A stretch of 35,259 nt of DNA from a virus, in IMG/VR virus record IMGVR_UViG_3300025769_000388, positions 1 through 35,259 of that record. One strand, 5' to 3'. Numbering within the stretch: position 1 is the stretch's first letter; each line of letters starts with the position of its first letter. Below, one piece after another: positions 10,331-35,250 of the stretch. Below the pieces are notes generated by a model. It had not been told where the DNA came from and made no database searches. It saw only the letters and a list, made by a program, of their open reading frames with translations. A program made the position numbers and the translations under genes.

Positions 10331-11803
10331 TTAAGCTACTTGAGAAGCAGTCTTAAATAGTACGAAGTTGTTAGCTCCTTGTACACACAAGCAACGCTCA
10401 GATAAGAAGTGTACATTCATTTCGTCAACATCAGAAGTGTAAACTCCACCTACAGATCCAGTGATCCAAGATTTCATTTTACGATCATCAGCTTCAGAAG
10501 CACGGTAACGTACGTGCAAGAATGGACGCTTAATGTTTTTACCAAGCTGCTGGTCATATACTGTAGAAGTTCCAGCTGGTACTAAAATACCATCAATATT
10601 TCCACCTAAACCACGAGTAGTCGCGTCGTTTAAGTATTTCCAGTCAGTTTTATAGAAGTCATAAGAACCACGACGGAAGCCACTAAATCCAAGATTTAAT
10701 GCCATATCCTCTTCGTTATTAAATACTCCATAAGAAGTACCGCCATTGTAGTGTGCATTAACAGCACCTAACATATCGTCAAAAGCCAATGCGGTAGCAC
10801 GGTTTAAGAATAACATGTTTTCTTCAATAGCACCTTGCTTATCTAAGTTCTTTAAGATTTCATCAAAATCAGCTAAAGCTCCACGAGCAGCTCCATCAGA
10901 GTTATCTAATGCATCTTCACCAGAGTTAAAGTTTTGATAGATATTTCCGCGACTTTCTACAGCAGAAAATAAACCTTCTGTACCTTTGTAGCTAGCACCA
11001 ATAGCTCCAGATCCAGAAGCAGCAAGCTCACCTTCAACCATTGACATTTCTAAGTAATCTTCAAAGCGTAAGCGTGTTTCATGCTCAGATTTCAAATACC
11101 ATAAATACCCAGAAGCACCGTTTTCAGTAGTTACTTCGACCCATCCAATTTGTGCAACATCAGATCCAGAAATATTGTATTTATCTTTAATGATAATTGG
11201 TGAGTTAGAAAACTGTTGGAATCCAGCATCAACTGATCCATCCATTCCAGCAGTACCTTTCTTAAATTCAGAACCATATACAAATACCTTAACAGATACA
11301 GCAGTTCCTGAAGTTAATCCAGCAGCTGTAAGAGTAGCACCACCATAAGCAAGCACAGTAAACGTGTTTGTAGTTACAGCAGACACAACACCCTTAACTA
11401 CTTTATCAGCAGTCCAAGTTACTCCGTCATTAGGATATGTTCCAGACTCAATAATAGCAACAGTTTGCCCTACGCGTACAGCGTGGTCGTTTTCAGTAAC
11501 AACGCCAGTAGTAGTGTTAGCAGCAGCACTGTCATAAGCAATGTGTAATCTTCCTTGCTCAGACCAAATGACTTGATCAGAAGCTGAAGGAATCTCAGCA
11601 CCAACCATACGTAAGAAAGAAGCTACAGAGCGATTTCCATAGCGCTCAACTTCTTTTTCGTATACGTCTGGTAAAAATTGTTTTGCAAAAGTTCCTCCTC
11701 CTGAGCTATCGTCAAAAGTTAGATAATTTGTTCCAAAAAGTGTTTTTGTTGGGGTAGGAGTTAATCCTGCTGGAAACGACCCACCCGTTGAAAATAATCC
11801 CAT
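10331..11803 (-). CDS. Major capsid protein
   Basis: A 490-residue protein with the features of an HK97-fold capsid protein of the crAss-like type. The N-terminal arm contains FLPDVYEKEVERYGNRSVAS and SFLRMVGAEIPSASDQVIWS. A beta-rich inserted region follows (about residues 95-185, Val/Thr/Gly-rich, with GQTVAIIESGTYPNDGV). The C-terminus has a conserved-looking NIKRPFLHVRYRASEADDRK segment and ends in an NNFVLFKTASQVA strand. Gene order portal, scaffold, capsid supports the call. Its codons look more G/C-ended and regular than those of neighbouring genes, which fits high expression. It starts 20 bases after the scaffold gene stop, with an A/T-only leader, and is followed by a hairpin. Confidence 0.85.
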   Translation of the reverse strand: MGLFSTGGSFPAGLTPTPTKTLFGTNYLTFDDSSGGGTFAKQFLPDVYEKEVERYGNRSVASFLRMVGAEIPSASDQVIWSEQGRLHIAYDSAAANTTTGVVTENDHAVRVGQTVAIIESGTYPNDGVTWTADKVVKGVVSAVTTNTFTVLAYGGATLTAAGLTSGTAVSVKVFVYGSEFKKGTAGMDGSVDAGFQQFSNSPIIIKDKYNISGSDVAQIGWVEVTTENGASGYLWYLKSEHETRLRFEDYLEMSMVEGELAASGSGAIGASYKGTEGLFSAVESRGNIYQNFNSGEDALDNSDGAARGALADFDEILKNLDKQGAIEENMLFLNRATALAFDDMLGAVNAHYNGGTSYGVFNNEEDMALNLGFSGFRRGSYDFYKTDWKYLNDATTRGLGGNIDGILVPAGTSTVYDQQLGKNIKRPFLHVRYRASEADDRKMKSWITGSVGGVYTSDVDEMNVHFLSERCLCVQGANNFVLFKTASQVA

Positions 11804-15509: not shown

Positions 15510-17714
15510 CTATTTTATTATTGTTGAATGCGATCCTTTATTGTTATATCTTGAAATTTTTATATTCAATGGTTGTCTTTCTGATTTTGGCTTTGGGTGA
15601 TATAAATGTCTATTACATGCCATTATAGCCAACCCTGAACTTATTGCCGCATCATATTTAGTTCTTTTATTTATATCAAACTTGGCCCAGTCGTTTAATG
15701 TTCTATTAAAATATATATTACCGCCACCTTCTTCTGTTATGCCTACATGATTATTAATGTAAGTTTCTATAGCTGCGGCATGAGCTTGTTTTATATCTTC
15801 AGATGTATTTGGTATGCCACCAATTTCTCTTTCTGTTACAGATAATTTATTCCAAACTTTGTCTGGTCTGTTCATTGAAAATCCTCTATATCCTCTACGT
15901 CTAATGTGATACAGTAACCGTGGTTTGTTATTCTCTGCCAAAAGTGGCATACCGTAGTAGACCAAAGCCATGAGAACATCTTCAAAAAACATTTCAGCAG
16001 TTTGTGGGCGTGCAACATATTCTAAAAAAAATGTGTTAGCAGGAGAATCCTCCATGCTAAATTTAGTTAATCCGTGTAAAGCGCCCTTAGAACCTTGTCC
16101 GTCTGTTGTTCCTGAAATATCGTACGAGTCACAACCAAAAGCTCCCATATGTTCATTACCAGGATATTTGACGCCATTCTTAAGTATTACGTTGTTTTCT
16201 AAGTTCTTAGAAGGAGTCCAGGATACGTAAAATCTTCCATTTGTATTTGGTGTAAAAATTACTTTTGAATCTTTAATACCATTTTCCCATGAAAACGACC
16301 CTCTTGTGATATACCCTTTTCTCGCAAGATCTTCGTTGTAATCTATTTGCTCGTATATTTTTGTTAAATTAAATATACTATTTTTTGCTTCGTCACGAAA
16401 CGCATGCTCTTCTGTTCTTGGAAATTGTCTATAATATTCATTTAAGGCGTCACTATCGTGCTTTAGCCCCTCAACTTCATTTTCCCAAAAATCTATAACA
16501 CCTGTTTCAATATCTGTTCCGTCATTTCCTTTGACCGGTATTCCTGGCGTAGAAAATACAGGGTATCCATAAGAATCAATGAATCCTTCGTAGTTCCATT
16601 CCATAGGTATGAACAAACTATATAATCCTGAACTAGTCTGCCCGTTGCGGTTTCTTTTAGTAACGTCGGAGTCATTATATAATTTTTTAAAATTATTTCC
16701 GCCTTTATCCAAAGCATTAGACGTTGATCCCATCATGCACTTGCCTATAACTTTACTACCTAATCGCAATGTAGTTTTAGTTACACGCCAGTTATTTAAT
16801 ATATTGTCGGGTCGTTCCCATTTACCGCTTTCATCATGCACTAACAGATTTAACTTTTCCCCGTCATATGAATTATCACCTGTATTTTTCCAATCTATTG
16901 TTGTATCAAGTCCTTCAAGTTCTGTTTCTTTAGAGGTTTGAACAATTGATTTTTTGGTGAGCTTGGAAGCTGGTACTCTGTACGCGAGCTCGGTTTTAGG
17001 CCTATCCATTCCATCCTGTATTGGTTTGAAAAAGAATGGGTAGTTGAGTGATATTGGTACAACCTTGTCCGTGAACATCTTTTTAGCATCGGCACCAGAT
17101 TTGGACAATATTCCGAACCGTGCATCTTTTGTAATTGTTGCCAAATTGACTGATTCTGCTGAAGACATAAAACTAAATCCGGAGCGGCGGTTTTTAAGAT
17201 AACACATTCCGTAAGACCTATAGTCTGCTTTACACGCTTCCCAGAAGATAAAGAAAATTCTGTTAGCTTCCCTGAAGTCTGGCTTCCCAACATCAATCTT
17301 GGTCCACTGCAAGTACATATAGTGAGTACCAGTAATATAAGTAGGTGTATTTTTATTATAAAACCAATGACCTTCTTCGCGTCTGGTAAATTCTCTATCA
17401 ATATATGCATACCATTTATTTTTAAAAGCGTCAGGGTATGTTTCCCAATCAAACCTAGTTTTTATTTTTTTAAGTTCGTTGGGGTATTCATGAGGCGTCC
17501 ACCTACCGTTATTTTCAATTTCTTTTGGAGCCACTGGCAAAGCTATCTTTAAATTTTGTATTTCTACAATTTCACCAATTTTTCCACTTTTACTAATTAC
17601 AACAACGTCGTAGTCTTTATTATACCCGTACTCCCATTTGTTTAACTTATTAAATCGTTTAATTGTGTTTAAACGTATGGGGCTTATAGATTTAATTAAA
17701 TTTTGTTCGTACAT
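15510..17714 (-). CDS. terL: Terminase large subunit
   Basis: A 734-residue packaging motor with an N-terminal ATPase and a C-terminal nuclease. A degenerate Walker A-like segment, KNRRSGFSFMSSAES, lies at about residues 174-188. Walker B plus catalytic Glu is LNLLVHDESGKW at about 288-299 (D294, E295). The RNase H-like nuclease shows GAFGCDSYDISGT near residue 525 and a late DAAISSGLAIMACNRHLY near 695, supplying acidic metal ligands. The aberrant Walker A without a GKT/S matches the crAss-like and related marine phage TerL type. The start ATG overlaps the stop of the upstream small gene by one base (TAATG), which suggests translational coupling. Confidence 0.88.
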   Translation of the reverse strand: MYEQNLIKSISPIRLNTIKRFNKLNKWEYGYNKDYDVVVISKSGKIGEIVEIQNLKIALPVAPKEIENNGRWTPHEYPNELKKIKTRFDWETYPDAFKNKWYAYIDREFTRREEGHWFYNKNTPTYITGTHYMYLQWTKIDVGKPDFREANRIFFIFWEACKADYRSYGMCYLKNRRSGFSFMSSAESVNLATITKDARFGILSKSGADAKKMFTDKVVPISLNYPFFFKPIQDGMDRPKTELAYRVPASKLTKKSIVQTSKETELEGLDTTIDWKNTGDNSYDGEKLNLLVHDESGKWERPDNILNNWRVTKTTLRLGSKVIGKCMMGSTSNALDKGGNNFKKLYNDSDVTKRNRNGQTSSGLYSLFIPMEWNYEGFIDSYGYPVFSTPGIPVKGNDGTDIETGVIDFWENEVEGLKHDSDALNEYYRQFPRTEEHAFRDEAKNSIFNLTKIYEQIDYNEDLARKGYITRGSFSWENGIKDSKVIFTPNTNGRFYVSWTPSKNLENNVILKNGVKYPGNEHMGAFGCDSYDISGTTDGQGSKGALHGLTKFSMEDSPANTFFLEYVARPQTAEMFFEDVLMALVYYGMPLLAENNKPRLLYHIRRRGYRGFSMNRPDKVWNKLSVTEREIGGIPNTSEDIKQAHAAAIETYINNHVGITEEGGGNIYFNRTLNDWAKFDINKRTKYDAAISSGLAIMACNRHLYHPKPKSERQPLNIKISRYNNKGSHSTIIK

Positions 17715-17989
17715 TATTTAGATCTACCTTCTGCAAAGCCTTTAAAGGATTGTGTAGATCCTTTTTCAGATGCCTCTAGCATATTCTTTTCGGTTTCAAC
17801 TCTTGTTAATATTTCAAAAGCGTCAAATATTGCTAATTTTTTTGTTGCGGCCGCATTTTTTAGTCTATCTGCAGCTAAATCTTCTTCAGGATCGCCAATA
17901 ATTATTTTTTCTTCGGCAACTCTTATAAGCTCATCAACCGCTTTATACCCAGCTTGGATTATATTCTGCTTCAGTTCCTTGTCTTTCAT
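17714..17989 (-). CDS. Candidate terminase small subunit
   Basis: A 91-residue, mostly helical protein directly upstream of and coupled to terL. It contains ELKQNIIQAGYKAVDELIRV and LAADRLKNAAATKKLAIFDA, followed by another helix and a Gly/Ser/Arg tail ending GFAEGRSK. Small terminases are short helical DNA-binding proteins encoded beside terL, so the call rests on position, size and helicity; there is no diagnostic motif. Its start overlaps the 3' end of the upstream gene by 47 bases. Confidence 0.55.
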   Translation of the reverse strand: MKDKELKQNIIQAGYKAVDELIRVAEEKIIIGDPEEDLAADRLKNAAATKKLAIFDAFEILTRVETEKNMLEASEKGSTQSFKGFAEGRSK

Positions 17990-18536
17990 ATTTTATTGCT
18001 ATAGAATTTAAAGGGACTCTATATAATCTTTCGTCTTCAATAACGAACTCATACTCGCTGTTTGGAGTAAAACCTACTATATCATTATCAGTTAGATTAA
18101 AGCTTCTTAAATCAGCCCCTAGGTGCTTTAAAACGCCTATATGCTCTTTTTCTTTTGTATTTAAAAAGCTATCGTCTTGTTTTAGAGGTTTTACAAAGCA
18201 ATAACCTTCAGGTGCAAACCACTTGTTATTACGTTTGTATAAAAATATTTGATCTTCATAACACATAAAGAGATTATTTTGAAAATAGCTACTACTATTT
18301 CTTTCTTCTCCTCTCACATCAAAATATCTTCTAAATACATTATGATGCGCAATAATTATATCGTCTTTTTTAAAAATCGGATTATTTATTGGTGTTTCTA
18401 TTATTTTAGCTTGTCTATTTACAAACTTATGATCTTCTATTTGAGTATTTAAAATTAAATTAGAGTCACCTATTTTTTTATTATTTGTATACCTTCCATC
18501 TAAAGGCTCTATTAAATAGGCGTGTAAATGTTTCAT
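17943..18536 (-). CDS. Putative tandem GroES-like fold protein
   Basis: A 197-residue protein that I read as two halves with GroES-like character. Half one has NRQAKIIETPI, then FKKDDIIIAHHNVFRRYFD, then EDQIFLYKRN and YCFVKPL. Half two has HIGVLKHLG, then LTDNDIVGFTPNSEYEFVIE and RLYRVPLNSIAIKYE. Each repeats the co-chaperonin order 'G-x-V-x-x-x-G, D-x-I/V, aromatic strand, final D/S-x-I-A-I'. The second half is the closer match to the C-terminal part of GroES. No membrane segments. It precedes the terminase genes and starts at the stop of the 76-residue gene upstream. The fold call is inference; it could equally be an unrelated beta-barrel protein. Confidence 0.55.
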   Translation of the reverse strand: MKHLHAYLIEPLDGRYTNNKKIGDSNLILNTQIEDHKFVNRQAKIIETPINNPIFKKDDIIIAHHNVFRRYFDVRGEERNSSSYFQNNLFMCYEDQIFLYKRNNKWFAPEGYCFVKPLKQDDSFLNTKEKEHIGVLKHLGADLRSFNLTDNDIVGFTPNSEYEFVIEDERLYRVPLNSIAIKYERQGTEAEYNPSWV

Positions 18537-27158: not shown

Positions 27159-27479
27159 TTATTTTTTTTGTTTTTTATATGCCTCTTTTTCCCAAGGTAA
27201 ATTACTTGCACCTTCTTTCATAAGCGCTCTTGGGTGTTTTTTTCCTTTCCAATAAACGTTTTCATCATCATATGACAAATCCCCTCTAAGTATTTGATCG
27301 CGGTGAACTTTTTCGTGACTGATAGCAACGTCTTTTTTCTTTTTAGATAAATTTTTATTTACAACAATAGTGCCATCATTTAAGGTAACGCCTTCAACTT
27401 TACCCATTCCATTTTCCTCTGTTACCAGGCCATGGTCCATTATCAATGACTTGATATTGGTTTTCATTTTATATGCCAT
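27159..27479 (-). CDS. Putative small HEXXH zinc metallopeptidase
   Basis: A 106-residue protein with an HEKVH motif (AISHEKVHRDQILRGDLSYD) near residue 55 and a downstream acidic candidate third ligand in SNLPWEKEAYKKQ near residue 95. HEXXH plus a later glutamate is the gluzincin-type zinc site. The protein is too short for known large peptidases, so it would be a minimal domain. The start at 27479 overlaps the stop of the winged-helix gene (TAATG). Substrate unknown: host protein cleavage, virion maturation or a wall-related role are all possible. Similar small phage proteins exist as I recall, but none with a proven function. Confidence 0.6.
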   Translation of the reverse strand: MAYKMKTNIKSLIMDHGLVTEENGMGKVEGVTLNDGTIVVNKNLSKKKKDVAISHEKVHRDQILRGDLSYDDENVYWKGKKHPRALMKEGASNLPWEKEAYKKQKK

Positions 27480-27919
27480 TATCTTGTTATATCTTTAAAC
27501 ATATCGTCTATAGCCTTGTTATAAACTTTATCTGTATATGATTTATTTTTAAAAAACACGCTGCGCTCAGACATTGGTAAGTCTTCTTCGCCTAGCATTA
27601 TTTTGTATATTCTTGTTATAAGGTGTTTACACTTTGTTGATGTTTTAAACACATTATATTTTATTGTGGTTTGGTTTCTTTCTGCATAAACGTCAATCCA
27701 ACCTTGTCGGCGCAATCTTTCCCATCTTTTTTTATCCCATGAAAAAGTGTATGTGCCTTTAATATAATCATCACGCGTAAACAATCCTACGCAATCAAAA
27801 TATATAAGTAATTCTAAATCAGCATCTTTTAAATTATAAGTTTTACAGGCCCATCTTCTGATAAGCCTGTAATACTTTAGTATGTTCATTTCTCTTAAAT
27901 CAGATGCTTCTATTCTCAT
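27479..27919 (-). CDS. Winged-helix (MarR-like) DNA-binding protein
   Basis: A 146-residue basic protein. Residues about 8-110 follow a MarR-like winged-helix order: helix (MNILKYYRLIRRWACKTYNL), DADLELLIYFDCVGLFTRDD, recognition helix WDKKRWERLRRQGWIDVYAE, wing RNQTTIKYNVFKTSTKCKHL, then dimer-type helices. The tail is charged (FFKNKSYTDKVYNKAIDDMF). Its start shares ATGA with the GroES stop, so it is translated with the chaperonin genes. It could control late gene expression or bind DNA structurally. Assignment by pattern only. Confidence 0.55.
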   Translation of the reverse strand: MRIEASDLREMNILKYYRLIRRWACKTYNLKDADLELLIYFDCVGLFTRDDYIKGTYTFSWDKKRWERLRRQGWIDVYAERNQTTIKYNVFKTSTKCKHLITRIYKIMLGEEDLPMSERSVFFKNKSYTDKVYNKAIDDMFKDITR

Positions 27920-28185
27920 AGCACAGCAATGACGTCAGACTCTTTTATAACGAAATATAATTTGTTATCAAACTCTATTCCGTAGCCAGCATGCTTATCA
28001 TAGTATATTAACGCATCTTCATTAAGCCCCTCAACTAGGTTGCCTATAGAAATAACTTTGCCTTTTCTATATCTTACGTCGTCTTGATGTTTTTCGTTTA
28101 AAAGCAAACCATTTGTTTTCTTTGGCTCTTCTTTTATTCTATCTATAATTATATATCTATTGATTGCCTGCATCTTCTCTAACAT
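27916..28185 (-). CDS. groES: Phage co-chaperonin GroES
   Basis: An 89-residue co-chaperonin. Family pattern: INRYIIIDRIKEEPKKTNGL (first strand and mobile loop), RKGKVISIGN, DALIYYDKHAGYGIEFDNKL, then FVIKESDVIAVL, matching the GroES order 'RVLV, mobile loop, G-x-V-x-x-x-G, GD-x-V, ESDI-AV'. The mobile loop keeps three hydrophobics (NGLLL in place of GIVL), needed to contact the GroEL apical domain. Between GN and the later strands it is shorter than the E. coli protein, so the dome 'roof' hairpin is probably missing, as in T4 gp31. The start at 28185 overlaps the groEL 3' end by 29 bases; an ATG at 28173 is an alternative. Confidence 0.82.
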   Translation of the reverse strand: MLEKMQAINRYIIIDRIKEEPKKTNGLLLNEKHQDDVRYRKGKVISIGNLVEGLNEDALIYYDKHAGYGIEFDNKLYFVIKESDVIAVL

Positions 28186-29716
28186 TTGAAATTACACAAT
28201 CAGCAGATATAATTGTAGAAGCAACGGACGCTGCATTTTTCAATGCTGTTTTGGTTACTAACACTGGGTCAATGATCCCAGCTTTAATCATATTAACGAC
28301 TTTGCCGTTTGTAACATCAATTCCTTTACCTTTGCTATACACATCCCCAGTAACACCAGAGTTGCTTAATATAGTTTTAAAAGGTTCTTTCATTGCTGCC
28401 AACAATATTTCTTCGCCCGGGCAAGCTGATTTTATACTATCAGCTGCATTACATAATGCAATACCTCCTCCTGGAACAATACCTTCTTTTAAAGCAGCTT
28501 TAACAGCATAAATAGCATCTTCAACACGGTCTTTCTTTTCTTTCAAGGCTACTTTACTATCAGCACCAACTTTTATGATACCAACGGATCCAGAAAGCAT
28601 CGCTTTACGCTCTTCTAACTTTTTAATTACATAATCGTTTTTTTCTTCTTTCAATTGTTTTTCAATTGACTCAATACGACCAGTAATTTTTTCGTTAATA
28701 TTTTCTACAGTAATAACGGTGTTGTTGTCATCTGTTACCGCTTTTTTGCAAACGCCTAAATGCTCAACGCCAATTAAATCTAAGTCATCACCCAAATCTT
28801 CATTAATAATAGTTGCCCCAGTGATAGAAGCTAAATCTTCCATTAATTCTTTTCTTGTTAATGAAAAGCCTGGTGAATCAATAACATTTACTTTTATGTT
28901 ACCCTTTGCTTTATTCATTATTAATGCAGAAAGTGGCTGTTGAGCAATATTGCCAATTATAAGTATACTGCGTTTTTCTTTTATAGCATACTCTAAAACA
29001 GTTTGAATCTTTCTAATAGTATTTACTTCAGATTCAACTAAAAGCACCAAAGGATCTTCTAATACAGCTTTACCTTTTTCTTTATCTGTAATAAGATGTG
29101 GAGATTTTAAGCCTGAGTCAAATTGCACTCCATCTACGATTTCAACGTGCGTTTCTGCTGTATCAGACTCTTCCATCAATACCACACCGTCTTTTCCAAC
29201 TTGCTCGTAAGCATTTGCTATAATACTTGCTAATGCTTTATCATTATTTGCAGAAATATTTGCAACATGGTTGAGCATTGTTCCCTCAACAGGGACTTTA
29301 ATTTTATCAAGGTATTTTAACGATTTAGCTAGGGCTTTTTCAATTCCAATCTTTATACCTCTAACGTTCGTTTGACCGCTTTGATAATATTCATTTAAGA
29401 TGGCGGAAGCAAGGACTGTTGAGGTGGTAGTACCATCGCCTGCTTCCTTTACTGTTTTTTGAGCAGCTTCTTTTATAAGGGTGGCGCCAATATTTTCTAC
29501 CGGGTCCCGTAAGATTACGCTGTTTGCTACAGTTACACCATCTTTTGTGACGATCGGTCTACCTAATGCGTCTTCATATATAACACACTTTCCCGATGCG
29601 CCTAGTGTTGATTTGACAGCATCGTTAAGTTTATTAACGCCTGCCATAATTTTAGTACTTGCGTTATTGCCAAAGTTTAAATCTTTAACAATATCGCTTG
29701 GGTGATTAAATTCCAT
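28157..29716 (-). CDS. groEL: Phage chaperonin GroEL
   Basis: A 519-residue group I chaperonin. The equatorial domain keeps the ATP residues: VTKDGVTVA (D59), AGDGTTTSTVL (D94), VEDAIYAVKAALKEGIVPGGG (D400) and IIDPVLVTKTAL (D483), which correspond to D52, D87, D398 and D495 of E. coli GroEL. So ATP hydrolysis is probably intact. The apical domain keeps RSILIIGNIAQQPLSALIMN but the aromatic face differs: the E. coli segment GYLSPYF reads GLKSPHL here. The C-terminal Gly-Gly-Met repeats are absent (ends REDAGNQ), and the N-terminus has about seven extra residues. The gene order groEL-groES is the reverse of bacterial operons. Likely folds large virion proteins. Confidence 0.9.
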   Translation of the reverse strand: MEFNHPSDIVKDLNFGNNASTKIMAGVNKLNDAVKSTLGASGKCVIYEDALGRPIVTKDGVTVANSVILRDPVENIGATLIKEAAQKTVKEAGDGTTTSTVLASAILNEYYQSGQTNVRGIKIGIEKALAKSLKYLDKIKVPVEGTMLNHVANISANNDKALASIIANAYEQVGKDGVVLMEESDTAETHVEIVDGVQFDSGLKSPHLITDKEKGKAVLEDPLVLLVESEVNTIRKIQTVLEYAIKEKRSILIIGNIAQQPLSALIMNKAKGNIKVNVIDSPGFSLTRKELMEDLASITGATIINEDLGDDLDLIGVEHLGVCKKAVTDDNNTVITVENINEKITGRIESIEKQLKEEKNDYVIKKLEERKAMLSGSVGIIKVGADSKVALKEKKDRVEDAIYAVKAALKEGIVPGGGIALCNAADSIKSACPGEEILLAAMKEPFKTILSNSGVTGDVYSKGKGIDVTNGKVVNMIKAGIIDPVLVTKTALKNAASVASTIISADCVISNVREDAGNQ

Positions 29717-29733
29717 TAAATTAAAATATTAGA

Positions 29734-30018
29734 TTATTTGAATGTTTTAACTACTGTTGGGCCTTCAAAAGCTTTTAGTCTTTTTCTAAAATGCTGCACC
29801 GAAGAATCGATTGCTTGTTCCGCGCCTTCAATAGTTTCGCGCCTTGTTACATCAATCCATTGGTCATCAAGCTCATATTCAGTTTGATAAAAACCATTCG
29901 GTAATTGCGTAATACGCCAATTTTCTTTTAAGGCTAAAGTTTCCCATAGGGCTTTGGTTTCTTCATTCAATTTAGGTTGTTGGTTAGTCGTTGCCGACTT
30001 GTAATAAAAATAGGTCAT
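29734..30018 (-). CDS. Small unknown protein upstream of groEL
   Basis: A 94-residue soluble protein beginning MTYFYYKSATTNQQPKLNEE. It has a central helix (ETKALWETLALKENWRITQL), a beta hairpin NGFYQTEYELDDQWIDVTRR and a C-terminal helical stretch (EGAEQAIDSSVQHFRKRLKA). No motif recognised. Its stop lies 17 bases before the groEL start, so it is cotranscribed with the chaperonins. A 62-base A/T-rich gap separates it from the upstream fibre-like gene and may hold a promoter, but I see no clear element. Confidence 0.6.
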   Translation of the reverse strand: MTYFYYKSATTNQQPKLNEETKALWETLALKENWRITQLPNGFYQTEYELDDQWIDVTRRETIEGAEQAIDSSVQHFRKRLKAFEGPTVVKTFK

Positions 30019-33572: not shown

Positions 33573-33903
33573 AATTTTGTTTTGTTAAAGATTAATCTTA
33601 TTTATACATGCATACGTTATTTATTGCGTATAATAAGTGAGGTTTACATTAGAGTGTGACGTTAGCCTATTATTATGTATATATATGGGGTATTTGTCAC
33701 ATAAAACTGTTATGAGATATATAGAGGTTTTGTATTACACCTAACTATCTGATAACCAGCCACTTAACTAAAACCAATATTTTAACCCCATGGGTACCAA
33801 TAAGTTACAACAATATATAAAGTTTTTACCTTTTTATTATTATAAATTACAATATAAATACGAACTAAAGTGGATAATATAAATGTAAAAAGAATTTAAA
33901 ATT
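33573..33903. other. Divergent intergenic region (331 bases)
   Basis: No coding frame was found here. It separates the minus-strand structural block from the plus-strand small genes, so both transcription starts should lie in it. Visible elements: the palindrome AAGATTAATCTT at 33588-33599; a TGTGAC/GTCACA pair at 33655-33660 and 33696-33701; a CCCATGGG palindrome near 33788; and one copy of the repeated plus-strand promoter-like element at 33856-33884. I could not assign a minus-strand promoter. Confidence 0.6.
33856..33884 (+). promoter_or_regulatory. Repeated promoter-like element, copy 1
   Basis: AAATACGAA, then CTAAAGT, then GGATAATATAAAT. It ends about 20 bases before the ATG of the first plus-strand gene. 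Same spacing between the ACGAA and TAATAT blocks as in copies 2 to 4. Confidence 0.65.
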
Positions 33904-34143
33904 ATGAAAACTACATTAGAAAAACACTTAAAAGAAGTAAAGTTACAAAATAGAAAAATTGTTAACTCATTAGTACAAAGTGAACTTAATAAAATATTTA
34001 GAGAAGATTACTATGGAAGTAAAGAACAAATTCTAAATGAAAAAGTAATAAGTGAAAATGTATTAGTAAAAGAAAATTGTGAAATGAAATATAATGAAAC
34101 AATTGAAGAATGGTATTTAAGAATCTATGATTTTACAAAATAA
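33904..34143 (+). CDS. Small helical protein, unknown function (79 aa)
   Basis: A 79-residue charged protein: MKTTLEKHLKEVKLQNRKIV, then NSLVQSELNKIFREDYYGSK, ending EWYLRIYDFTK. Largely helical in its first half, without membrane segments or recognised motif. The leader AATTTAAAATT before ATG has no Shine-Dalgarno. Its stop TAA overlaps promoter-like copy 2, so each gene and the next element form a compact unit. Small early phage genes of this kind often inhibit or redirect host functions, but nothing here shows which. Confidence 0.7.
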   Translation: MKTTLEKHLKEVKLQNRKIVNSLVQSELNKIFREDYYGSKEQILNEKVISENVLVKENCEMKYNETIEEWYLRIYDFTK

Positions 34144-34170
34144 ATACGAAACAAATTGGATAATATAAGT
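34142..34170 (+). promoter_or_regulatory. Repeated promoter-like element, copy 2
   Basis: AAATACGAA, then ACAAATT, then GGATAATATAAGT. It starts inside the stop codon of the preceding gene and precedes a 116-base leader that holds a hairpin before the next start. Confidence 0.65.
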
Positions 34171-34217
34171 GTAAATAATATAAATAAGTTAATAAAATTA
34201 ACTAAAATAACTTAAAA

Positions 34218-34246
34218 AGTGTATAGAACTAGTGAACTATACCACT
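34218..34246 (+). other. Hairpin in 5' leader
   Basis: Arms AGTGTATAG and CTATACCACT pair over nine bases with one bulged C and a 10-base loop (AACTAGTGAA). It lies in the leader between promoter-like copy 2 and the gene at 34287. No U-run follows, so it is more likely a leader structure than a terminator. Confidence 0.45.
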
Positions 34247-34286
34247 CTACTAAAAATAACTAATAAACAACTTATACCCTTTAGAT

Positions 34287-34493
34287 ATGAATAAAATGAA
34301 CTATACAATAAACGAAATTAAGATAGAACTATTTGACAAGTGTCACGAACTAGTGTACGAATATATGAATAGATATGCCGAACAAATCAAAGATGAAACT
34401 TTAGATGAATTCCATAATAGACACGGAGAAATGATGAAAAAGGTGTTTAGAGAATTAAGTGGAGATGTAGTGGCTTTTTACCAAGAAAAATAA
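34287..34493 (+). CDS. Small helical acidic protein, unknown function (68 aa)
   Basis: A 68-residue protein, nearly all helix: MNKMNYTINEIKIELFDKCH, ELVYEYMNRYAEQIKDETLD, EFHNRHGEMMKKVFRELSGD. A second in-frame ATG at 34296 is a possible start, as its leader AATAAAATG looks like the others. The length and composition suggest a compact helical bundle. No motif recognised. It is the only plus-strand gene with a long leader (116 bases after the promoter-like element). Confidence 0.65.
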   Translation: MNKMNYTINEIKIELFDKCHELVYEYMNRYAEQIKDETLDEFHNRHGEMMKKVFRELSGDVVAFYQEK

Positions 34494-34516
34494 ATTGCTA
34501 TACACAACTACAAACC

Positions 34517-34545
34517 AAATACGACCTCAAATGGATAATATATAT
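34517..34545 (+). promoter_or_regulatory. Repeated promoter-like element, copy 3
   Basis: AAATACGAC, then CTCAAAT, then GGATAATATATAT. The first possible ATG of the next gene (34544) overlaps its end, which argues for the ATG at 34556 as the true start if this is a promoter. Confidence 0.62.
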
Positions 34546-34717
34546 GAACAATAAAATGAAAGATATGATAGAGTTATTAAAAAAAGAAGCAAAGTACTTG
34601 AGCTATCCTCAAATAAAAGAGCAAGTTGAGTTCTATATTGAAACCGAATGCTATGCAAACAATGCTGATGAAGAGTTAAGACTCACCAACTATATACTAA
34701 ACGAAATATATAACTAA
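34544..34717 (+). CDS. Very small protein, unknown function (57 aa)
   Basis: An open frame of 57 codons: MNNKMKDMIELLKKEAKYLS, YPQIKEQVEFYIETECYANN, ADEELRLTNYILNEIYN. It is helical and acidic. The first ATG lies within the promoter-like element; the in-frame ATG at 34556 (53 residues) has a normal A/T-rich leader and is the better start. It fills the gap between copy 3 and the next gene, which follows after 13 bases and so is probably cotranscribed. Confidence 0.6.
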   Translation: MNNKMKDMIELLKKEAKYLSYPQIKEQVEFYIETECYANNADEELRLTNYILNEIYN

Positions 34718-34730
34718 AAAATAAAAAATT

Positions 34731-34952
34731 ATGAAAGAATTAAGAATGAAAAGACTTCAAAGAGAAGTACAAGAAAGAGTGTTGATGAATGATGGAAATC
34801 TTAAAAAAAGTTTTCAAGAAGTGTTAGACCACTTATACAAATCACACGAGTTGTATTATGACAATGATAGAATTGTTCAAGCAATGGAAACAATGCGAGA
34901 TATTAACACTCTAAAAGAAATGATTGTCGAATATAATACACTACAAGATTAA
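34731..34952 (+). CDS. Small helical protein, unknown function (73 aa)
   Basis: A 73-residue protein with helical, coiled-coil-like character: MKELRMKRLQREVQERVLMN, DGNLKKSFQEVLDHLYKSHE, LYYDNDRIVQAMETMRDINT. It starts 13 bases after the preceding stop with leader AATAAAAAATT and has no promoter-like element of its own, so it appears to share copy 3 with the upstream gene. Its stop touches copy 4. No family recognised. Confidence 0.68.
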   Translation: MKELRMKRLQREVQERVLMNDGNLKKSFQEVLDHLYKSHELYYDNDRIVQAMETMRDINTLKEMIVEYNTLQD

Positions 34953-34979
34953 CACGAATCAAATTGGATAATATAAACG
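34951..34979 (+). promoter_or_regulatory. Repeated promoter-like element, copy 4
   Basis: AACACGAA, then TCAAATT, then GGATAATATAAACG. It begins in the preceding stop codon and ends 16 bases before the next ATG. Confidence 0.65.
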
Positions 34980-34995
34980 AATAAAGAATTTAATT

Positions 34996-35220
34996 ATGAC
35001 AATGAAAGAATTATTAGCCTACTCGGCACAACAAAAGAAACTAAGAGCTAAAATTTGGAATAGCCAAAAAGACCAAGATTGTCGAGGTCTAACCGAAAAA
35101 GAGTACAAACAAATTGATACTCAAGTTAAAAAAGCAAGAGGTTATCGTCACACTCATCGAGGTTTGTGGTCTTACCCAAGAAGCGAAAAAGGTTATGCCT
35201 TCCCAAAATATTACAACTAA
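34996..35220 (+). CDS. Small basic protein, unknown function (74 aa)
   Basis: A 74-residue, Lys/Arg/Tyr-rich protein: MTMKELLAYSAQQKKLRAKI, WNSQKDQDCRGLTEKEYKQI, then DTQVKKARGYRHTHRGLWSY and SEKGYAFPKYYN. Unlike the other plus-strand proteins it is basic with an aromatic, Gly-containing C-terminus, which could bind nucleic acid. A second ATG two codons in is an alternative start. Its leader is AAGAATTTAATT, and its stop directly abuts promoter-like copy 5. No motif recognised. Confidence 0.68.
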   Translation: MTMKELLAYSAQQKKLRAKIWNSQKDQDCRGLTEKEYKQIDTQVKKARGYRHTHRGLWSYPRSEKGYAFPKYYN

Positions 35221-35250
35221 AACACGAATAAAATCGGATAATAATATAAA
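35221..35250 (+). promoter_or_regulatory. Repeated promoter-like element, copy 5
   Basis: AACACGAA, then TAAAATC, then GGATAATAATATAAA. It follows the last stop without a gap and should drive the next gene beyond the window. It differs from the other copies by three inserted bases in the TAATA block. Confidence 0.6.

Follow-up and report, generated by a model that had tools for sequence, protein, structure and literature searches.

A phage-encoded GroEL-GroES pair and a second co-chaperonin, predicted to be a tandem Cpn10, beside the terminase in a marine phage lineage

The chaperonin genes and their setting

The window analysed here, meaning the whole 35,259-base stretch that makes up one IMG/VR virus record and whose positions serve as coordinates throughout, carries a groEL gene with an overlapping groES and, close to the terminase, a gene for a second co-chaperonin that we call ES2. 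Among relatives of the terminase we found 87 phage records, whose hosts are Flavobacterium, Cellulophaga, Maribacter or Tenacibaculum or are not named, and judging by these hosts the phage probably infects a flavobacterium. The features needed for the argument are the following:

10331..11803, minus strand: putative major capsid protein, 490 aa, 52.6 kDa (PHROG 13704, virion structural protein, 2.4e-106)
15510..17714, minus strand: terL, terminase large subunit (PHROG 6681, 2.3e-169), marking the head/packaging module that adjoins ES2
17943..18536, minus strand: ES2, second co-chaperonin of 197 aa with a predicted double-Cpn10 tandem build, lying two genes upstream of terL (PHROG 13932, 1.1e-11)
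27479..27919, minus strand: gene for a 146-aa protein after groES, overlapping it by 4 bp here (PHROG 17028, 5.7e-08; synteny)
27916..28173, minus strand: groES, single-domain co-chaperonin, probably 85 aa (PF00166, 6e-12; PHROG 3188, 2e-12; AF2 model and Foldseek)
28157..28173, minus strand: groEL/groES overlap, 17 bp if groES starts at the conserved ATG (29 bp if at the first ATG)
28157..29716, minus strand: groEL, group I chaperonin, 519 aa (PF00118, 1.9e-52; PHROG 5725, 2.8e-129; NCBIfam NF000592)
29734..30018, minus strand: gene for a 94-aa protein directly upstream of groEL, kept in relatives

The first-pass annotation had reported a GroEL of 519 residues, and both the position and strand of the open reading frame and its family matches bear this out. 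The product scores 179 bits against PF00118 (cut-off 34.3), with profile positions 1-488 of 490 covered, and 467.7 bits against the subfamily model NF000592, above its cut-off of 397, and it falls below the NCBI equivalog cut-off of TIGR02348 (454.8 bits vs 582.1). By these scores it is a divergent member of the group I family and not an equivalog of bacterial GroEL. PHROGs already holds phage families for both parts of the chaperonin, namely 5725 for groEL and 3188 for groES. The four ATP-site aspartates that had been pointed out (D52, D87, D398 and D495 in E. coli numbering) are present and, together with T30, kept in all 31 aligned members of the window's clade. The altered apical motif noted earlier, GLKSPHL versus GYLSPYF, is equally real in the alignment, and so is the loss of the GGM tail, which is found in 32 of 36 sampled bacterial GroELs and in none of the 31 clade members.

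Apical contact residues Y199, Y203 and L234 also differ in the clade, and positions R452, E461, S463 and V464, which we take to be the ring-ring contacts altered in the single-ring mutant SR1, are conserved in bacteria but scattered across the whole GroEL clade, with deletions nearby. This scatter makes an altered or absent double ring possible for the phage GroEL, that is, a single-ring or weak double-ring state. Both sets of changes would suit a reading in which the phage GroEL folds proteins without enclosing them fully, perhaps as single rings in the manner of the phage EL chaperonin, and in which the co-chaperonins serve host GroEL. We regard this as improbable: the direct overlap of groES with groEL at nearly every locus points to a functional pair, hydrophobic or invariant residues persist in the clade at L237, N265 and a number of other apical positions, and the phage EL chaperonin itself has no GroES partner.

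The groES product is recognized by PF00166 with 45.9 bits (cut-off 21.1), and its AF2 model (pLDDT 87) has a Cpn10 fold, with Foldseek matches to Cpn10 down to E=2.9e-6, T4 gp31 (1g31) being among the matches. A roof hairpin had been described as lacking; the alignment indeed has a deletion opposite the E. coli hairpin, and in the model strand 35-43 passes to the next strand (55-59) through a short turn alone. The mobile-loop hydrophobics, which had been described as kept, are present as an aliphatic triplet, LLL in the window, with G22 in 47/47 sequences and positions 23-25 mostly L/F/I, I/L/V and L/M/I. As for the start, the 89-residue product and 29-bp overlap given at first do correspond to the first-ATG reading frame (27916-28185, minus strand), but the conserved start is the ATG at 28173 (M5): the upstream ATG is missing in a close relative (L003) and is directly followed by an in-frame stop in another record (L004). 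Since relatives conserve M5 and not the upstream ATG, the product is likely to be 85 aa long, with a 17-bp overlap. The 29-bp overlap was rejected as a conserved feature, given that the upstream ATG is not kept and that the overlap varies in length, from 1 to 20 bp across the window's clade when counted from the conserved ATG.

Some observations on the surrounding DNA can be recorded here. In nearly all relatives the gene for the 146-aa protein comes after groES, with inserted genes between the two in some of them, and its relative in MW202828 is annotated 'repressor protein'. A 106-aa protein encoded between the chaperonin genes and an M15 endolysin (27159-27479) gives weak metallo-protease-type matches (phrog_87, E=0.009; DUF6782, E=0.06). 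On the plus strand, 33860-35243 holds five copies of ACGANNNAANNNGGATAATA with 0-1 mismatch, compared with 0.5 matches expected per whole window; most of the copies immediately precede small rightward ORFs, and they are candidate phage early promoters, and exact copies are also present in records L008, L013, L131 and L180.

Gene order, ancestry and selection

Across all 103 viral loci with both genes (some records being represented twice), groEL precedes groES and shares its strand, whereas the 80 bacterial loci comprise 72 with groES first, 2 with groEL first and 6 without an adjacent groES. The inverted order, which the first-pass annotation had singled out, thus stands when set against bacteria (2 of 74 pairs are groEL-first) but not as a novelty, as it has already been reported in viruses and is seen in cultured phages. 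A groEL-first pair is also found in MW202828, in the cultured Flavobacterium elemo phages and in the Maribacter phage Panino, with the opposite order, groES first, in phi38:1, Calle_1 and immuto. The groEL-first order is a real trait of this lineage, the rule here and not new. In the passages of PMC9611531 that cite Marine et al. 2017, viral subunit order is said to track GroEL phylogeny, and the passages of PMC7185714 that bear on the subject mention homologues of both GroEL and GroES in some phages. As portrayed in these two citing texts, the virioplankton GroEL/GroES are like the pair described here in being group I, divergent from bacteria and of an order tied to GroEL phylogeny; the citing passages do not mention a tandem second co-chaperonin, which the window phage has in ES2. 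Because order and overlap persist over more than 100 viral loci and dN/dS is low, the pair is not a chance arrangement.

The window GroEL shares about 43% identity with its nearest bacterial counterpart and 57-99% with viral relatives. A GroEL phylogeny, which had been named earlier as a check, was run on 78 rows; it unites the window clade (SH-aLRT 97) and sets it apart from each of the 37 bacterial rows sampled, with no nesting in a host clade, while distant cultured phages sit on long branches and are of uncertain placement. Against close relatives, dN/dS is 0.02-0.04 for groEL, 0-0.05 for groES and 0.16-0.19 for ES2. Judged by these ratios all three genes are under purifying selection, strong in the case of GroEL, and ES2 evolves faster than GroEL or GroES in these close pairs. 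Given the position of the GroEL clade outside the bacteria sampled and the strong purifying selection on it, the GroEL/GroES pair is best regarded as phage-owned and long-standing, and a recent acquisition from the host is unlikely. Indeed, nothing but homology speaks for a recent capture of groEL and groES from a host, and given the identities, the well-supported viral clade and the reversed gene order in bacteria, we attach next to no probability to it.

ES2, a predicted tandem co-chaperonin

The pair had at first been taken to form a self-sufficient, matched chamber. This holds insofar as GroEL and GroES are phage-owned, but the account was incomplete, since the second co-chaperonin by the terminase had been overlooked. 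The PHROG family matched by ES2 (13932) bears the label 'co-chaperonin GroES'; by sequence, the window ES2 has no match in Pfam, NCBIfam or PDB. Its AF2 model, built from 59 sequences (pLDDT 80), has two Cpn10-like strand patterns in succession. The best solved match in Foldseek, 7ekq_R (E=2.6e-4, probability 1.00, 207 columns, TM about 0.54), covers both domains and carries the entry name 'Cpn20 co-chaperonin subunit' (algal Cpn20); it is followed in the ranking by 7ekq_Q and then by single Cpn10s. Among viral models, ES2 matches the 'chaperonin cpn10' of phi18:3 along its entire length. Homologues add evidence by sequence: the second half alone is a Cpn10 (PF00166) in phi38:1 (2.4e-10) and phi13:2 (3.2e-10), and in elemo it is the first half of the homologue that lies in register with GroES (PHROG 3188, residues 14-64, 3e-4). 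Direct hhalign comparison of ES2 with GroES gave in-register matches that are weak and sub-threshold because the alignments are shallow. ES2 is thus predicted to consist of two Cpn10 domains head to tail; for domain 1 this relies mostly on the model, its sequence signal being weaker than that of domain 2.

The two domains differ in their loops. In domain 1 the length of the loop does not vary, and the rows have L27 in 59/59, I28 in 54, L29 in 48 (the rest I or V), N30 again in all 59 and T31 in 56. Domain 2, across the same rows, has a short loop without an aliphatic triplet, and no GroEL-binding-type loop was found in it. Read most simply, domain 1 would bind the apical face of GroEL and domain 2 would serve as a spacer.

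A likeness to chloroplast Cpn20 (7ekq) is apparent, as that protein also has two head-to-tail Cpn10 domains and occurs alongside a single Cpn10; it is, however, a plastid protein, and ES2 is without a mobile loop in domain 2. A search of PDB sequences found no specific kinship of ES2 with plastid Cpn20. The likeness is likely to be convergence, and while ES2 may work like Cpn20, we do not file it as a member of that family, because it has a GroEL-binding-type loop in domain 1 only. The tandem Cpn20 type of co-chaperonin is described in a review as chloroplast-specific, and algal subunits of the Cpn20 and Cpn10 types are described there as forming functional hetero-oligomers of seven domains (PMC5780408).

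We scanned for the position of ES2 using the terminase as the only seed, a locus being testable if it had at least 900 bp upstream of TerL. Each of the 69 testable loci proved to have ES2 upstream of TerL; 67 of the genes end no more than 600 bp from the terminase and two lie slightly further away. Of 30 long viral contigs, all have ES2, 27 have GroES and 26 have GroEL; the contigs that miss one of the genes are cut or fragmentary. This fixed position upstream of TerL, the lack of a mobile loop in domain 2 and the divergent, faster-evolving sequence could also be understood if ES2, instead of being a lid, had turned the Cpn10 fold to a role in the virion or in assembly, for example as a head completion or packaging factor. 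A GroEL-binding lid needs the aliphatic triplet that domain 1 retains in essentially all 59 rows, however, and we would be surprised if the assembly role proved correct.

All three components, GroEL, a single Cpn10 and ES2, occur in elemo, phi38:1, Panino, MW202828 and Calle_1. The elemo phages (NC_055854 and others) have groEL and then groES with a 1-bp overlap and, like the window, an ES2 homologue beside TerL; their GroEL and ES2 are 36% and 33% identical to those of the window, and the ES2 homologue is annotated 'chaperonin cpn10' or 'co-chaperonin GroES', with the two-domain build absent from the annotations seen. The podovirus ctfjg026 (MW202828, Manatee Spring) has a TerL 65% identical, a groEL-first pair with a GroEL 35% identical and, two genes upstream of TerL, a homologue of ES2 that is annotated 'hypothetical protein'. 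Cellulophaga phi38:1 and Calle_1 (Callevirus) likewise have GroEL, a single Cpn10 and an ES2 homologue next to TerL; unlike in the window, groES comes first and is separated from groEL by one gene. The ES2 family is therefore not unseen, as database annotators label relatives cpn10 or GroES. Keyword searches of open papers found none describing its two-domain build, and it is this tandem second co-chaperonin that sets a chaperonin pair otherwise ordinary for its lineage apart. Jumbo phage CBB (PMC5259590) is an earlier case of a phage with two GroES-like ORFs, and a tandem protein is not described in the passage concerned.

Cellulophaga phage phi13:2 has co-chaperonins of 82 aa (L274:30087-30335) and 200 aa (L264:7028-7630), and no GroEL was detected across its whole genome. 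Its ES2 homologue, missed by tblastn and found by profile, led us to reject a strict co-occurrence of GroEL and ES2. In Gundel_1 none of GroEL, single Cpn10 and ES2 was found. Since phi13:2 keeps both lids without GroEL, the single and the double lid are the common denominator among carriers and GroEL is the variable part; and because ES2 accompanies single-domain GroES even in a GroEL-less phage, it looks like the more ancient part of the set. Separately, an ORF at L009:10281-12314 joins a fibre-like N-terminus to a bacterial-type GroEL from GDGTTTATV onwards; this apparent second GroEL was rejected as a probable assembly chimera.

Lids, clients and a proposed mechanism

T4 gp31 is a single-domain co-chaperonin that uses host GroEL. 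It is roofless and a structural match to the model of the window GroES, but T4 places one lid on host GroEL, whereas the window phage itself supplies a GroEL as well as two lids. With gp31 as a precedent, one may picture two separate systems, a self-contained groEL-groES pair and an ES2 that acts as a gp31-like lid and steers host GroEL to the capsid, the two lids never mixing. ES2 lies within the head module, some 9.6 kb away from groES, which would fit this picture, as would the presence in phi13:2 of ES2 and a single GroES without a phage GroEL. The same phage can be turned against it, however: as both lids are retained there, the single GroES is not bound to phage GroEL alone, and the aliphatic loops of GroES and ES2 are alike. 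We therefore consider such a strict separation unlikely, although it deserves to be taken seriously.

A cage of the GroEL type encloses clients of up to about 60 kDa. Two clients had been proposed in the first-pass annotation, and they fare differently: the 2453-residue protein called 'nozzle' (PHROG 14478, 'virion structural protein') has a mass of 274 kDa, too large to be encapsulated, and was ruled out as such a client, but the 52.6-kDa capsid candidate would fit by size. Because ES2 lies in the head module and the capsid candidate has this size, head proteins suggest themselves as clients, and the putative capsid protein would be the most plausible of them.

On balance we favour, with moderate confidence, a three-gene group I set, composed of GroEL, roofless GroES and tandem ES2, that would form a two-lid, possibly mixed-lid, folding system for head proteins. 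This reading builds on the observed gene content, gene order, selection, ATP site, predicted folds and loops, from which we infer ring assembly, mixed lids and clients. Group I GroEL hydrolyses ATP and is capped by a co-chaperonin. In the mechanism that we propose, the phage GroEL would hydrolyse ATP and capture newly made head protein, most likely the capsid protein, after which the loaded GroEL would be capped by GroES, by ES2 or by a mixture of both, and the resulting chamber would be suited to virion proteins. GroES would bind via its LLL triplet and ES2 via the LIL-N-T loop of domain 1, with domain 2 left blank. A mixed lid is modelled on the chloroplast case, where Cpn10 and Cpn20 sum to seven domains. 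In a phage without a GroEL of its own, ES2 would have to act on host GroEL. At least one homologue of the phage GroEL is made, since mass spectrometry found that of phi38:1 both in virion samples and in infected cells (PMC13288928).

That single-domain and tandem lids occur together, even without a phage GroEL, suggests by analogy either the same arrangement as in algae or two interchangeable lids. The three-gene reading can be taken further to a phage GroEL capped by a mixed GroES/ES2 lid, convergent with the Cpn10/Cpn20 hetero-lid of chloroplasts; such a lid would be asymmetric, with fewer GroEL-binding loops than domains, and might be tuned for the folding and release of the capsid protein. 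This more specific proposal is possible, but we hold it tentatively and lean against it.

In this common lineage of marine phages a predicted tandem lid keeps a constant place next to the terminase, and every cultured carrier that we checked also has a single-domain partner. The phage tandem lid could thus serve as an independent test of why lids doubled, and of whether mixed or asymmetric lids aid large clients such as capsid proteins. The culturable relatives elemo, phi38:1, Calle and Panino make the idea of two lids testable.
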